A model generated the notes under the pieces. That model did not search any database. It was not told the origin of the DNA and saw only the letters and a list, made by a program, of their open reading frames with translations. DNA of 64,000 nt from Mesotoga sp. Brook.08.105.5.1 (GTDB lineage: Bacteria; Thermotogota; Thermotogae; Petrotogales; Kosmotogaceae): assembly GCF_002752635.1 (NCBI RefSeq), contig NZ_AYTW01000040.1, positions 1 to 64,000 of the forward strand, written 5' to 3'. The position numbers and the translations under genes are program-made. How positions within the stretch are numbered: the first letter of the stretch is position 1; every line of letters starts with the position of its first letter. This document shows positions 22,323-28,576 of the stretch, one piece after another.

Positions 22323-23708
22323 TTGCAAGGGATGTACAATCTATTTATGCTAGGTGGACTTCTGAAAAGGAAAACCTCTTTCCCGTTTCTATACTATCTC
22401 CTTGCAACAATGCTTGGGGAGCTGTTGGTATTTGCACTTGCCTGGACGGCAGGTGCATGGATACCACTTATCTTTGTATCGACAGCCGTTATTCTTCTTT
22501 CTTCCAGATGGGTCAGCCCTTTCATATGGCTCATATTCTTTGTGGTCGGTTGCCTCGGTCAGTCTTTAACGTTGAAGACACTTGATCCTGGAAAGGTAGA
22601 ATATGTGGGATACATATCCAGAGGCGGAACGGGAAACGTTGAGGCAAGCATGGGAAGAGTGCTTGTTGAGGGAAAGTGGATGAATCTTCCCGTCGCTGTA
22701 AACATAAGGCTTTCCGACAGAAAAGCCGCAGCTTTTGCGGGCCAGATAATCTGGACAGCGGGAACTCTTATAAGGCAAGAATCATTTCCTCTTTTCAAGA
22801 TCGAATCAAATATTGAGGCCTGTGTCGAGAGGCTAGAGGTCTTCTCTTATCCTGGAAAGTATGTTACTGAGTTACTTTCGAGGTACAAACTAAATGACAC
22901 GATTGCTGCAGCCGTCTTCACCGGCGATAGAAGCCACATTGATTTTGAGACCAGGGAGAGGATTTCTGATCTTGGAGTTGCGCATTTGTTTGCGGTTTCT
23001 GGTTTGCACATCGGTCTTATGTATTTGCTGGTCCATTCCGCTATCTCTTTTCTCATGTTAGGTAGGAAAACGAAGCTGATACTTTCTATTGTCGTGCTCT
23101 TCTTCTATACCTTATCTACTGGTCCAGCGATATCTGCTACCAGAACATTTTTAATGTTACTGTGTTATTCACTACTGAAGATCATTGATTACCGACAGCA
23201 CCCGCTTAATATTCTGGGATTTTCCGGAATTATTATTGTTATGGCACAACCATCTATTGTTGCGTCAATTTCATTCCAGCTGAGTTTCTTTGCAACAGCT
23301 GCGCTTCTAATCTTCTTGCCTGCAATCGAGAATAAGAATCTGCTAAGTCAGACATTGCTTGTTGGAGCGATCGCTCAGACGGCTATCATCCCGCTTTCTC
23401 TAAGTACATTTGGCACGTTGTCTCTAGCAGGAGTACCGTTAACCGTAGTAATGGTTCCAGTCTTCGTTGTGCCTTCGTATCTTGGAATGATTTTCATCTT
23501 GATAGCAGATCTTGTTGGGCTGCAAATAGTAGGCAGTTTTATTGCTGGTAGCCTCAGAGCCATGTCCTCGCTACTTGGTGAAGTCACTAGTGTAATTGGG
23601 GGAGTCATCCCGACGATACGCTTTGAACCTCTTACTGCCTATCTATTATCGTTGCTGTCACTTTTCTTATTCTTCACTTTGCTCAGGCATTCTGGACACA
23701 AACCGTAG
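22323..23708 (+). CDS. ComEC/Rec2-type DNA uptake channel, without beta-lactamase domain
   Basis: Membrane protein of 461 residues resembling the competence channel ComEC. The diagnostic stretch is FTGDRSHIDFETRERISDLG followed by HLFAVSGLHIGLMY, and later AIAQTAIIPLSLSTFGTLSL. About ten membrane segments are present. ComEC proteins are often 700-800 residues with a C-terminal metallo-beta-lactamase domain; here the protein stops after the membrane core at LLRHSGHKP. The start could be TTG 22323, ATG 22332 or ATG 22347; none has a strong ribosome site. The last 70 bases overlap the convergent fur gene. Competence in this organism is an inference. Confidence 0.85.
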   Translation: MQGMYNLFMLGGLLKRKTSFPFLYYLLATMLGELLVFALAWTAGAWIPLIFVSTAVILLSSRWVSPFIWLIFFVVGCLGQSLTLKTLDPGKVEYVGYISRGGTGNVEASMGRVLVEGKWMNLPVAVNIRLSDRKAAAFAGQIIWTAGTLIRQESFPLFKIESNIEACVERLEVFSYPGKYVTELLSRYKLNDTIAAAVFTGDRSHIDFETRERISDLGVAHLFAVSGLHIGLMYLLVHSAISFLMLGRKTKLILSIVVLFFYTLSTGPAISATRTFLMLLCYSLLKIIDYRQHPLNILGFSGIIIVMAQPSIVASISFQLSFFATAALLIFLPAIENKNLLSQTLLVGAIAQTAIIPLSLSTFGTLSLAGVPLTVVMVPVFVVPSYLGMIFILIADLVGLQIVGSFIAGSLRAMSSLLGEVTSVIGGVIPTIRFEPLTAYLLSLLSLFLFFTLLRHSGHKP

Positions 23709-24106
23709 AATTTAAGCTGATGATCGTCTATACTATATCCTGTTCTTGACTTCACAAGCTCTTCAAGTTCTTCGAGATTGTCAAGGTGAAACTCGACAAC
23801 GGAACCGCAGTTGCTGCAAATTATGTGATGATGATGATGCTCTCCCCTTTTCACCGGTTCGTACCTTACAATTCCATCTTCGAAAATAATCTTCCTTAGA
23901 AGGCCTATCTCTACGAGCAACTCAATGGTTCTATAAACGGTTGCTTTGCTTATCCCGAATTTCTTGCTCTGAATCTTGTGGTAGACTTCGTCGGCGCTTA
24001 AGTGATCTGTCTCAGCTTCAAAGAAGAATCTTAGCACGTACTCTCTTTGAGCTGTCATTCTCTGGTTTCTTCTCTTAAGTTCGGCCCTTAGTTGGTCTTT
24101 CTTCAT
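23639..24106 (-). CDS. Fur-family metal-dependent transcriptional regulator
   Basis: A 155-residue repressor with an N-terminal winged helix (MTAQREYVLRFFFEAE, SKATVYRTIELLVEIGL) and a C-terminal metal-binding dimer domain. Metal ligands are visible as a run HHHHH followed by CSNCG, and later CPEC, so two CxxC pairs for structural zinc. It could be Fur, Zur or PerR; residues alone do not decide. The ATG at 24106 follows GGTGACTG. It lies 28 bases after nusA, an uncommon neighbour, and its 3' end overlaps the convergent comEC-like gene by 70 bases. Confidence 0.92.
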   Translation of the reverse strand: MKKDQLRAELKRRNQRMTAQREYVLRFFFEAETDHLSADEVYHKIQSKKFGISKATVYRTIELLVEIGLLRKIIFEDGIVRYEPVKRGEHHHHHIICSNCGSVVEFHLDNLEELEELVKSRTGYSIDDHQLKFYGLCPECLSKVKNKKSDSNDNR

Positions 24107-24134: not shown

Positions 24135-25163
24135 TTACATTATGGGCTTTATGTCGATCTTCCAGCCTGTCAGTTTTGCGGCAAGTCTCGCGTTCTGTCC
24201 GCCTTTTCCAATTGCTAGAGATAATTGTGTTGGAGAAACGTAAACCACCGCCTCGTGGGTTTCTGCATTCACAATTTTCACTTCTAAAGCGGAGGCTGGT
24301 GCAATCGAATTGCCGACTAGTTCGGCCGGAACATTGCTCCATCTTAGGATATCGACCTTTTCGGGTTTTATCTCGCGAAGAACCTCGGCAATTCTTGCAC
24401 CGCTTTCCCCTATGCAGGCTCCTACGGGATCAACCTTGGTATTATCGCTGAAGACAGCTACCTTAGACCGGACCCCTTCCTCTCGAGCTATTGCTTTGAC
24501 TGTCACATCTCCGCTTTCGATCTCTGGAACCTGAAGTCTGAGCAGCTCGATGACGAATTCAGGTGTACGTCTCGTCACAAGCAAACGAGGACCTCTTGCA
24601 GATCTCGCAACATCCACAACAAAGACCTTCATCAGAGAGTTCAGCCTCGGCTGTTCTCCAGGAATTAGTTCCTTTGTGGGAATTCTAGTCTCTAACTTTC
24701 CTATTCGAAGGTCAACCCATTCGGAAGTGACTCTCAATATCTCAGAAGTGGTTGCTGTGCCTTTCATATCTACATACTTATCGAACAGGTTTTCTTTTTC
24801 CTTTTCACGGATCTTTTGAATTAGCACCTGCCGAGCTGTCTGTGCAGCGATTCTCTTGAACTTCTTGATATTCAACTTTCTCTCAATTGTGGTGCCTATC
24901 TCAGCGGCAGAATTTACCTTGAGAGCTTCTTCCAGAGTTACTTCCAAAGAAGGATTCTCTACTGTATCAACAACAACAAGTCTTTCGAAAACCTCAATGT
25001 CACCTGTAAGTCTGTCTATTCTCACATCGACATCGCTTTCCGAAGCGAAATTCTTCTTGTAGGCGCTTTGCAGCGCTTTCTCAAGTATATCAATGACCTC
25101 TTCTTTTTCGATACTCTTTTCGTCCTGCAGTTGGTCAAGGGCTTCCAAGAGATTGAGATTCAT
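24135..25163 (-). CDS. nusA: transcription termination/antitermination protein NusA
   Basis: RNA polymerase-associated factor that modulates pausing, termination and antitermination. The 342-residue protein shows the N-terminal polymerase-binding domain (IDILEKALQSAYKKNF, DVRIDRLTGDIEVFERLVVV), the S1 domain (GKLETRIPTKELIPGE), and two KH domains (DPVGACIGESGARIAEVLRE and LSLAIGKGGQNARLAAKLTG). It ends right after KH2 and lacks the C-terminal acidic repeats of E. coli NusA. The ATG at 25163 follows GAGGTG. It lies 21 bases after rimP. Confidence 0.97.
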   Translation of the reverse strand: MNLNLLEALDQLQDEKSIEKEEVIDILEKALQSAYKKNFASESDVDVRIDRLTGDIEVFERLVVVDTVENPSLEVTLEEALKVNSAAEIGTTIERKLNIKKFKRIAAQTARQVLIQKIREKEKENLFDKYVDMKGTATTSEILRVTSEWVDLRIGKLETRIPTKELIPGEQPRLNSLMKVFVVDVARSARGPRLLVTRRTPEFVIELLRLQVPEIESGDVTVKAIAREEGVRSKVAVFSDNTKVDPVGACIGESGARIAEVLREIKPEKVDILRWSNVPAELVGNSIAPASALEVKIVNAETHEAVVYVSPTQLSLAIGKGGQNARLAAKLTGWKIDIKPIM

Positions 25164-25184: not shown

Positions 25185-25643
25185 TCATAGTTTTAGGTTA
25201 GCACGCTTAACATTTGAAAAGTGGAATGCTATCTCTTTACCGTTCTCAGAGCTCTCGACAGTAACAACTTCACCTTGGCACGAGACAATCTTTCCAATCA
25301 CAACTGAAATCCCTTCAACGGGTTCCTTGAGTATAATCTTTGCCTTCTCTCCAGTGAATCTGAAATAATCATCAAGATCTCTTAATGCACGTTCAAGTCC
25401 CGGGGATTCGACTACCAGATCATAAGAGAAGGGAACGAGGTCCGCTGAATCAAGTGCTCTATCAAACTCGGCCGAAAACGATTCACAGTCGCTTATTGAG
25501 ATATATCTGTCCAGCTTATCGATCGTGACTTTCACCAGTCTCTTCTTTCCTCTTCTTGAGAGACCTAGGTCATAGATCGAATACCCCAGGTTGTTTGCGA
25601 CTTCATTTGCCAGCGCGAGCAACTCTTTCTTCAGGTCCTCCAC
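25185..25643 (-). CDS. rimP: ribosome maturation factor RimP
   Basis: Assembly factor for the 30S subunit, about 152 residues. Family features are ELLALANEVANNLGYSIYDL, the glycine-poor strand KRLVKVTIDK, and the hallmark YDLVVESPGLERALRDLDDY. I place the start at GTG 25643 because GGTGGTG precedes it by six bases; ATG 25658 lies directly against the U-tract of a terminator and has no ribosome site. The usual rimP-nusA pairing is kept. Expression is probably controlled by the leader hairpins described separately. Confidence 0.9.
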   Translation of the reverse strand: MEDLKKELLALANEVANNLGYSIYDLGLSRRGKKRLVKVTIDKLDRYISISDCESFSAEFDRALDSADLVPFSYDLVVESPGLERALRDLDDYFRFTGEKAKIILKEPVEGISVVIGKIVSCQGEVVTVESSENGKEIAFHFSNVKRANLKL

Positions 25644-25658
25644 AAACAACACCACCAT

Positions 25659-25700
25659 AATAAAAAATAGAGGGCAACATAAGCCCTCTCCCTTTGGGAG
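25659..25700 (-). promoter_or_regulatory. putative transcription attenuator in the rimP leader
   Basis: Reading the minus strand from about 25710, the leader can form hairpin 1 (CTCCC-AAA-GGGAG, 25700-25688) and hairpin 2 (AGAGGGC-7 nt-GCCCTCT, 25689-25669). Hairpin 2 is followed by ATTTTTTATT, so it has the form of a terminator. The two share bases 25688-25689 and cannot both form fully. The promoter lies upstream of both, so transcripts for rimP-nusA-fur must pass this terminator. Confidence 0.65.
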
Positions 25701-25716
25701 CATTTCAACTAAAGCA

Positions 25717-25745
25717 ATTATAACTCTTTTGTCAGCAGCAGTCAA
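25717..25745 (-). promoter_or_regulatory. consensus sigma-70-type promoter for rimP-nusA-fur
   Basis: On the minus strand TTGACT (25745-25740) and a perfect TATAAT (25722-25717) are separated by exactly 17 bases. The predicted start is near 25710, giving a leader of about 65 bases to GTG 25643. Confidence 0.8.
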
Positions 25746-25754
25746 TACGAAGAT

Positions 25755-26891
25755 CTAATCTGCTAGTGATATGTCCTCTCTCCTTACCACAATTCCGCCA
25801 AGAAGGACTATTACAACTGCCAGTGAGAGATTCAGAATGGAAGGAGCAATCACCTTGGAGAGACTGAAATCTAGCATCGAGATGCCTTGAAGCGCTACGA
25901 GAAGAGATGTTACGGGAAGGTTTTTACTGAAGATCTCAAGCCATTCGGGGAACATTGAATGAGGTATCAGGATTCCACTGAGAATTAACACGGTCGTAAC
26001 AATAGAAACAGATGTAAGCTGCGCACTCCTAGCAGAATTGAAAATCGTGCCGATCAGAATCCCTATGGATGTGAAAAGGAGAATAAATACCTCAATTACC
26101 GCTATATAGAGAAAGAGATTAGAGGCTATCTGGAGCCCAAAAAGGCTTCCAGCAGTTATGAATATCAGAACCTGTATTGTGGAAAAAACCGTGAAACTCA
26201 AAACCTTGGCTCCTGTATACTCTAATGCTCCAACGTTCGAAAGCCGTAGAAGGTCAATCACTCCACTTCTGCGATCCTCGAAGATTCCCGTTGCGGCTCC
26301 GACTGTTGAAACAAACATTATCGTCGTAACCAGGACTATTGGAAAGAGAAGGGAAGAGAAACTGAGTCTTGACTCAGTTATCCCTTCAACGGAGAGAGAG
26401 GGTGCCACATAATTCGGGTCGATATCCACTGTTTTCATAAATTCTGGATCTGCAACAACGGGGAGAGCTTTGAATTCTCTCAATACGTTGCTCATCACTT
26501 GATAGATTGCAACCGCAGTCTGCATCGAACCGGGATTGGGAATGAAGATTAGCTCCGACGGTTCCTGAAAAAGGAGATTGTTTGCAAATCCCCTTGGAAT
26601 AACAAAGACACCATCTAGATCATCGATTACGGAGTCGATTTCACTCCTGCTTGAAAGCTGGACGATATTTTCGCCTTTAAGCATTGATGTAGCGTACTGT
26701 ACGAAAAAAAGCCCTACAAATGTCCTGTCTTCATTTACAATACCTATCCTCAAGTTTGAGTAACCTCCCGTATCGGAAGTTATGGAAGAGATTGATGCAA
26801 GAACTACCGGCAGCAATACCAGCATCAGAAGAAAAGCTCTTGACTTGAAAATGAGAAGAAGATCATTTTGGACAAGCTTCAGAAACCTCAA
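25755..26891 (-). CDS. ABC-2 type transporter permease
   Basis: Membrane subunit of an exporter, about 378 residues. It has one N-terminal membrane segment (SRAFLLMLVLLPVVLAS), an extracytoplasmic domain of about 150 residues, and a block of five or six C-terminal membrane segments, the layout of the NatB/YhgE-like ABC-2 family. TTG 26891 is chosen because AGGAG lies six bases ahead and it yields MRFLKLVQNDLLLIF; a longer frame to 26942 has no site. No ATPase gene is adjacent; the nearest ABC-2-type ATPase is at 9783. It lies just upstream of the rimP promoter and has no terminator of its own. Confidence 0.82.
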   Translation of the reverse strand: MRFLKLVQNDLLLIFKSRAFLLMLVLLPVVLASISSITSDTGGYSNLRIGIVNEDRTFVGLFFVQYATSMLKGENIVQLSSRSEIDSVIDDLDGVFVIPRGFANNLLFQEPSELIFIPNPGSMQTAVAIYQVMSNVLREFKALPVVADPEFMKTVDIDPNYVAPSLSVEGITESRLSFSSLLFPIVLVTTIMFVSTVGAATGIFEDRRSGVIDLLRLSNVGALEYTGAKVLSFTVFSTIQVLIFITAGSLFGLQIASNLFLYIAVIEVFILLFTSIGILIGTIFNSARSAQLTSVSIVTTVLILSGILIPHSMFPEWLEIFSKNLPVTSLLVALQGISMLDFSLSKVIAPSILNLSLAVVIVLLGGIVVRREDISLAD

Positions 26892-27132: not shown

Positions 27133-28467
27133 ATGAAGAAGTTGACGGTGCTTGTTTTACTTGTTGTCGGAGCACTATCACTAGCTAGTGTTGATTCCAT
27201 GGCAGAGAGACTGCCAGTGTCGTCACAGAGCGTCCTGGTAGTAGAGCACTTAAATGATAATTACAAAGTTTCGAAGCAAACAGTTCTATTTGATATGGTG
27301 CTCAATCAGCTGGCCATAGAACAGCTGATTGCTCAGTACGTTGAGATGCTGGCATATAATAATGGTCTTGATCCGAAGGATATTTTTAGGGCTTTCGATG
27401 GAGATTTCGGGTTGGCCGCATGGGTGGATTCAGAGGGCTTAGATCGAGTGATAGCAATCCTTGGCCCGATATCAAACCCCAGAACTGTGAAGACGGCAAT
27501 TGAGAAATTGCTTCCACAGTTGCTGCCTTCTGATATCAAACTGAGTGTTGCTGTGGATCAAGAGTACCTTTACATTGGCGACATCGAGGCATATTCGATG
27601 GTTGGAAAGGGATACAACCTCTCTCTGGTTAAGTCTGATCTCTCGCCGGGTTTCGGCTATTTCTACGTGGATATGGGAGGCACTATTCAGAAGGGCTCTG
27701 TTTGGAATGAGGAGGGGATATTGATTGCAGAGGTATTGTCTATTCCTCTTTTTGAAGAAAGCAGAGAGAGGTTTCATGTTGCTCTAGAAGGAGCCTCTGT
27801 TGACGATCTTGAAGTTACTCGTCACCTCCCACTTGTTTCTGGATTTGCAAGGATTAACGATCTTTCCTTTCTATCGGAACTTGAATTTGACGGTCTCGGC
27901 TTTGTTCCTCTAGAGTTGGAAGCTCTCAGAATAGGTAATGTGAGCTTCGTAGATTTCTCAAAAGATATGACAGGCGAGATTATGATCGATGCAAATATCT
28001 CGGTTGACGATATCTTCTCAAGCCTTATGGGAACGCAGGGGGCTGCTTCCGATGACTCTGAATCAGTTGGATATTCTTATGTAGTTAGGACAGGGTACAA
28101 AGGATCAATAGATGATGCTAGATCTATGATTGAAAAGACTGATCCCGATCTGCAAGTATTGGTTTCAGGCGACGTTCTCATTGTTGAGGGCCAGTACATT
28201 TGGGTTCAGGATGGTTGGTTGTACGTTTCTTCGAAGAATCAAATCAGAACCAACGAAGAGCTTCAAAATGGAGTGGTAGTCTCGGAACTGAAAACATACA
28301 ACAAACTCCTCGGGTTCGTAGGTTCTGATGGGTTTGCGCGTCTCTTTATTGATTCAGGCTACATATTGACCGGGCTTATGGGATTGGAGATTGAGAGCGG
28401 AGTGCTTATAAATAGCGAGTTCATCGAAGATATGGGTGTAATCAGAAGCCTTGTGGTAATCAAGTAA
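27133..28467 (+). CDS. hypothetical exported protein
   Basis: A 444-residue protein with a clear signal peptide (MKKLTVLVLLVVGALSLAS), no lipobox and no later membrane segment. The ATG follows GGAGGTGAATAA. The mature part is mixed alpha/beta with a repeated layout: phrases such as FRAFDGDFGLAAWVD and LYIGDIEAYSMV recur in looser form (LIVEGQYIWVQDGWLYVSS). This recalls exported proteins of the DUF3352 kind, but the match is weak. It stands alone behind a 190-base gap. Function unknown. Confidence 0.8.
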   Translation: MKKLTVLVLLVVGALSLASVDSMAERLPVSSQSVLVVEHLNDNYKVSKQTVLFDMVLNQLAIEQLIAQYVEMLAYNNGLDPKDIFRAFDGDFGLAAWVDSEGLDRVIAILGPISNPRTVKTAIEKLLPQLLPSDIKLSVAVDQEYLYIGDIEAYSMVGKGYNLSLVKSDLSPGFGYFYVDMGGTIQKGSVWNEEGILIAEVLSIPLFEESRERFHVALEGASVDDLEVTRHLPLVSGFARINDLSFLSELEFDGLGFVPLELEALRIGNVSFVDFSKDMTGEIMIDANISVDDIFSSLMGTQGAASDDSESVGYSYVVRTGYKGSIDDARSMIEKTDPDLQVLVSGDVLIVEGQYIWVQDGWLYVSSKNQIRTNEELQNGVVVSELKTYNKLLGFVGSDGFARLFIDSGYILTGLMGLEIESGVLINSEFIEDMGVIRSLVVIK

Positions 28468-28503: not shown

Positions 28504-28576
28504 AAGAACATCTCGTTGACATAATTATACCTTTTTGAAGATAGATAGTCAAGTGTATACTTATAGGAGATTTGAT

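Follow-up and report, generated by a model that had tools for sequence, protein, structure and literature searches.

The locus lies in a 64,000-nucleotide stretch of Mesotoga sp. Brook.08.105.5.1 (the window, at its full length) and comprises a minus-strand operon with the gene order rimP-nusA-fur, preceded by a promoter-like sequence and a short leader with two potential hairpins (Table 1). The GTG start of rimP and its Shine-Dalgarno sequence are backed by relatives, several of which carry ATG at the same position; the named RimP protein relatives come from Mesotoga and a Kosmotogaceae bacterium. Upstream, on the same strand, is an ABC-2 permease gene whose stop codon at 25755 lies 66 nt before hairpin 2. 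In related genomes, nusA is found 3′ of rimP wherever the tested locus extends far enough, and fur follows nusA in the tested loci of family f2 and of the Mesotoga family itself (Kosmotogaceae, f1), barring loci that end inside rimP. As the operon runs nusA-fur rather than nusA-infB in these two families, expression of the Fur-family regulator would share any attenuation in the leader. In Kosmotoga olearia, a member of the same family, nusA (Kole_1529) was reported to be highly expressed only at 30 °C (PMC5674127), which points to regulation of the operon in this family.

Table 1. Features of the rimP-nusA-fur operon and its leader, in window coordinates.
Feature	Position	Strand	Basis
-35 hexamer TTGACT	25740..25745	minus	sequence; invariant in 10/10 Mesotoga genomes
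-10 hexamer TATAAT, 17-nt spacer	25717..25722	minus	sequence; invariant in 10/10 Mesotoga genomes
Predicted transcription start (A), 7 nt past the -10 box	25710	minus	inferred from Thermotoga maritima spacing (PMC3636130)
Hairpin 1, CTCCC AAA GGGAG, accessory specific to the Mesotoga family	25688..25700	minus	sequence, folding, family covariation
Hairpin 1 arms, CTCCC and GGGAG	25700-25696 and 25692-25688	minus	
Hairpin 2, AGAGGGC TTATGTT GCCCTCT, putative rimP-leader terminator stem, core GAGGGC/GCCCTC	25669..25689	minus	
Hairpin 2 arms, AGAGGGC and GCCCTCT	25689-25683 and 25675-25669	minus	
U-tract AUUUUUUAUU with distal interruption	25659..25668	minus	identical in 10/10 Mesotoga genomes
Expected 3′ end of short leader RNA	~25662-25660	minus	
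Shine-Dalgarno GGTGGTG of rimP	25650..25656	minus	sequence; relatives
rimP, GTG start	25185..25643	minus	Pfam RimP_N and RimP C-terminal domain
nusA	24135..25163	minus	Pfam NusA_N, KH_5
fur-family regulator gene, third in operon	23639..24106	minus	Pfam FUR

A preliminary description of this DNA had proposed a minus-strand promoter, TTGACT-17-TATAAT, followed by two hairpins, CTCCC/GGGAG and AGAGGGC/GCCCTCT, that overlap by two bases and lead into a U-rich tract. All of these agree base for base with the sequence, the promoter spanning 25745–25717 and the hairpins sharing AG at 25689–25688. Its placement of the terminator-like hairpin just 5′ of the rimP ribosome binding site also held, with the U-tract ending at 25659 and the Shine-Dalgarno sequence beginning at 25656. 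The promoter scores 11/12 and is one of two such matches within 14 kb, in which the overall number of promoter-like sites is close to the shuffled expectation. The predicted start site follows from the 7-bp spacing between -10 box and start site reported for Thermotoga maritima. Hairpin 2 ranks top among the predicted terminators and has the most G-C stem pairs (5); its U-tract reads A, UUUUUU, A, UU. From the end of the stem to the rimP GTG is 25 nt, and from the U-tract to the rimP start about 15 nt. The other 11/12 match, a second TTGACT-17-TATAAT at 28524–28552 of the window, also on the minus strand, aims leftwards at the 3′ end of a plus-strand gene (27133–28467). No minus-strand gene is evident near it, and it could be an antisense promoter or a chance occurrence.

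When the leader was folded stepwise, hairpin 1 appeared before hairpin 2, reaching −7.0 kcal/mol in an RNA of 24 nt; hairpin 2 (−10.6 to −12.2 kcal/mol) then formed beside it. The two hairpins can coexist: only one or two basal bases are shared, and alternative splits of the two common bases differ by 0.5 kcal/mol (−15.2 to −15.7). The stepwise folds of the leader yielded no convincing mutually exclusive antiterminator. A scan of the region against Rfam, riboswitches included, gave no match at gathering score; weak matches to the L20 leader and SAM-III fell far under the cut-off and were rejected. NusA- and NusG-dependent terminators are marked by distal interruptions of the U-tract. Such an interruption, UUUUUUAUU, is present here, yet the stem of hairpin 2 is strong.

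The promoter, both hairpins and the U-tract occur before rimP in all ten Mesotoga genomes compared. Sequence differences among them fall in the -35/-10 spacer, in the region of the start and in the loop of hairpin 2; the two promoter hexamers, the stems of both hairpins and the U-tract do not vary. A combined pattern of promoter, hairpin 1 and GAGGGC gave a single match in each of nine genomes and two in the tenth, a fragmented assembly; reversing the pattern as a control gave no matches in any. Taken by itself, the fold of the leader is only mildly more stable than those of shuffled sequences (z −1.8), and it is conservation that marks the element as more than chance. Within the genome studied here the core is not confined to rimP: GAGGGC hairpins are found at nine places, and several of them have U-rich tails. 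One such terminator, after an unrelated gene, served as a control: it reads GAGGGCC in close relatives and AAGGGCC in a diverged Mesotoga lineage, in which the rimP hairpin is unchanged. This comparison, with a single control, is suggestive only, a weak pointer to constraint on the rimP hairpin.

Sixteen distinct leader sequences from the Mesotoga family revealed different kinds of constraint on the two hairpins. In hairpin 1, 100% of cells are paired, and three of the five pairs have changed on both sides: the stem is CTCCC/GGGAG in four genera and CCTCT paired with AGAGG or GGAGG in genus g3. These compensatory changes trace to one lineage and thus represent one or few events. Hairpin 2, by contrast, has six invariant pairs and one pair that varies on one side; its sequence is fixed within the family. 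The compensatory changes sought in both hairpins by the preliminary description were therefore found in hairpin 1 alone. Hairpin 1 is confined to the Mesotoga family. The pattern suggests that hairpin 2 is a terminator read by sequence, with hairpin 1 a lineage-specific structural add-on. The modest novelty here is this pairing of a family-limited hairpin that covaries with one that is fixed in sequence.

To examine conservation more widely, we compared the region 5′ of rimP across the class, in 90 genomes. The GAGGGC/GCCCTC core is present at 50 of 52 rimP loci from six families (f1, f2, f4, f5, f6 and f8), the two exceptions being slightly altered hairpins. In the Thermotoga-type families f3, f10 and f11, a CCGGGAC/GTCCCGG hairpin takes this position at all 38 loci, each time in the order tRNA-Ser(GGA), hairpin, T-run, rimP (L042, L049, L051-L055, L057-L064, L066, L068, L069, L071-L083, L085, L087-L089, L091, L092, L094). 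There, the attenuator would also serve as the terminator of the tRNA gene. The layout parallels metY-rimP of E. coli and that of a Thermodesulfobacterium (L034), where a tRNA-Gly(CCC) precedes rimP. We found no description of this tRNA-Ser arrangement, or of the family-specific hairpin 1, in the open-access literature. Across families, the GGG/CCC centre is constant and the flanking pairs differ, and conservation of this hairpin type, with the hairpin 2 core, before rimP identifies the Mesotoga element as a rimP-leader attenuator. In family f5 (L024, L029, L039, L045, L046, L084, L086, L093), the hairpin starts 5–8 nt past the -10 box, at approximately +1. The RNA would thus begin with the terminator hairpin itself, which fits the 31-nt RNA reported in Streptococcus agalactiae.

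The proximity of the permease stop codon to hairpin 2, on the same strand, raises the question of whether the hairpin is simply the intrinsic terminator of that gene, the promoter match being fortuitous and rimP being transcribed from elsewhere. We regard this as extremely improbable. The hairpin stays with rimP where no permease is adjacent (L004, L011, L013-L019, L022-L030) and nusA follows rimP, so the element belongs to rimP-nusA and not to the upstream gene. Moreover, the promoter between permease and hairpin is invariant in Mesotoga while its flanks vary, and a promoter of at least 9/12 lies 5–64 nt 5′ of the hairpin in all scored tRNA-less loci but one, which scores 8/12. The closeness of the U-tract to the rimP start argues in the same direction. 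The hairpins could instead act mainly on the mature mRNA, as a 5′-end stabiliser or a binding site for RimP or NusA, with termination secondary. The f5 hairpins near +1 would suit such a role, but in every case the hairpin leads into a U-rich tract, and termination at +31 in S. agalactiae (PMC4448216) indicates that a hairpin at the extreme 5′ end can still terminate; we therefore consider this reading very unlikely.

Control could also be exerted on translation, if the 5′ arm of hairpin 1 paired with the Shine-Dalgarno region of the readthrough mRNA or if a leader peptide were translated. The arm is indeed paired with this region in the minimum-energy fold of a longer leader, and the match is strong in L016 (−11.1 kcal/mol, attained by 0.5% of shuffles). 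In most members of the family, however, the match does not surpass that of shuffled sequences, and it is missing in L020 and L021; we rejected this pairing as strong in one species only. Candidate leader ORFs do not keep the same start, frame or end from one species to the next, and L013 and L014 have none; a leader peptide was rejected for this lack of conservation, and a translational switch overall appears highly improbable. A further alternative is a partial terminator of fixed ratio, independent of NusA and setting a low constitutive level of rimP-nusA-fur. With its folding energy, GC-rich stem and six consecutive U, hairpin 2 could terminate fairly efficiently without NusA, and neither a sensor domain nor an antiterminator was found in the leader. 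Against this, hairpin 2 is frozen in sequence across families beyond what pairing demands, which fits recognition by a factor, and NusA-stimulated leader termination is reported in Bacillus subtilis (PMC12288461). We judge a fixed-ratio terminator unlikely.

Conservation of hairpin 2 in all Mesotoga relatives, and of its core through six families whatever the upstream gene, supports the attenuator proposed in the preliminary description. The attenuator is real and of an already described, widespread kind, documented here in Mesotoga and other Thermotogota. We consider it highly probable that it operates as a rimP-leader transcription attenuator, with a start near 25710, partial termination and negative feedback by NusA on its own operon. 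By homology, we infer for Mesotoga the use of the promoter, termination and dependence on NusA, and from the sequence a putative role for hairpin 1. RNA polymerase would start at the near-consensus housekeeping promoter, and the GAGGGC/GCCCTC hairpin would form in the RNA exit channel over the interrupted U-tract. A fraction of polymerases would terminate at about +49 to +51, releasing a leader RNA of about 50 nt, and the remainder would read through into rimP-nusA-fur; early termination of part of the transcription at this hairpin is probable. Abundant NusA, which at suboptimal terminators promotes pausing and the formation of the hairpin, would raise the terminated fraction and so limit its own operon, with no need for an alternative antiterminator fold. 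Such a feedback loop is the likely mechanism in Mesotoga; the hypothesis had already been published for rimP-leader and was reached independently in the preliminary description. The preliminary description held further that rimP, nusA and fur must depend on readthrough. This is likely, but for nusA and fur it is not compelled, as promoters inside rimP or nusA are possible.

In the Mesotoga family, hairpin 1 would fold first, abut hairpin 2 and share its last one or two bases, and so probably tune how readily hairpin 2 closes at its base. We can extend this tentatively to a more specific model, itself rather doubtful. In it, NusA or some other factor would recognise hairpin 2, which is almost unchanged across Thermotogota families, by its sequence within the RNA exit channel. 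Hairpin 1 would be an evolved tuner: competing for the basal pairs of hairpin 2, it would determine through branch migration how efficiently transcription terminates, giving attenuator control without an antiterminator. A frozen terminator stem beside a covarying hairpin lends itself to a clean test of sequence-specific reading of GGGC/GCCC by NusA or some other factor.

Naville and Gautheret, who described the rimP-leader in 2010, ranked it the most ubiquitous of transcription attenuators; it has a terminator stem of the form GGGc(...)gCCC and lacks an antiterminator, and they gave NusA as its likely effector (PMC2965389). The Mesotoga leader shows every sequence feature of this element: a terminator hairpin lies in the 5′ region of rimP in a rimP-nusA operon, its GGGc(...)gCCC stem is conserved and has a G-rich 5′ arm, a U-stretch follows with the gene start within 4–130 nt (here AUUUUUUAUU, 25 nt), and no antiterminator is visible. 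The Thermotogota version differs in its longer fixed core, GAGGGC/GCCCTC, to which the Mesotoga family adds the abutting, covarying hairpin 1; in this family and f2, fur rather than infB follows nusA. The Rfam model RF01770 (rimP; threshold 47 bits) has no match in the Mesotoga genome. Among 14 control genomes it matches E. coli only, and so apparently covers only a gammaproteobacterial form. In the metY-rimP-nusA-infB leader of E. coli MG1655, GGGC-TTTAG-GCCC-TTTTTTT lies directly 5′ of rimP, behind a CCCCG/CGGGG hairpin comparable in position to CTCCC/GGGAG here. Unlike hairpin 1, this upstream hairpin is itself a terminator, and it is preceded by a tRNA gene. In B. subtilis, the nusA leader is autoregulated by NusA-stimulated intrinsic termination (reviewed in PMC12288461); as in Mesotoga, the nusA operon has a terminator in its leader and no antiterminator is needed, though that leader is 180 nt long (PMC2965389), against about 50 nt predicted here. 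The rimP-nusA-infB operon of S. agalactiae (gbs0413-0418) likewise has a promoter, a terminator hairpin and readthrough into rimP-nusA. Its short attenuated leader RNA is 31 nt long, leaving hardly any room for a hairpin 1, and its authors propose NusA feedback (PMC4448216). Our comparison extends rimP-leader to the Thermotogota, a deep-branching phylum, and supports the view that early termination limiting NusA is old and widespread.
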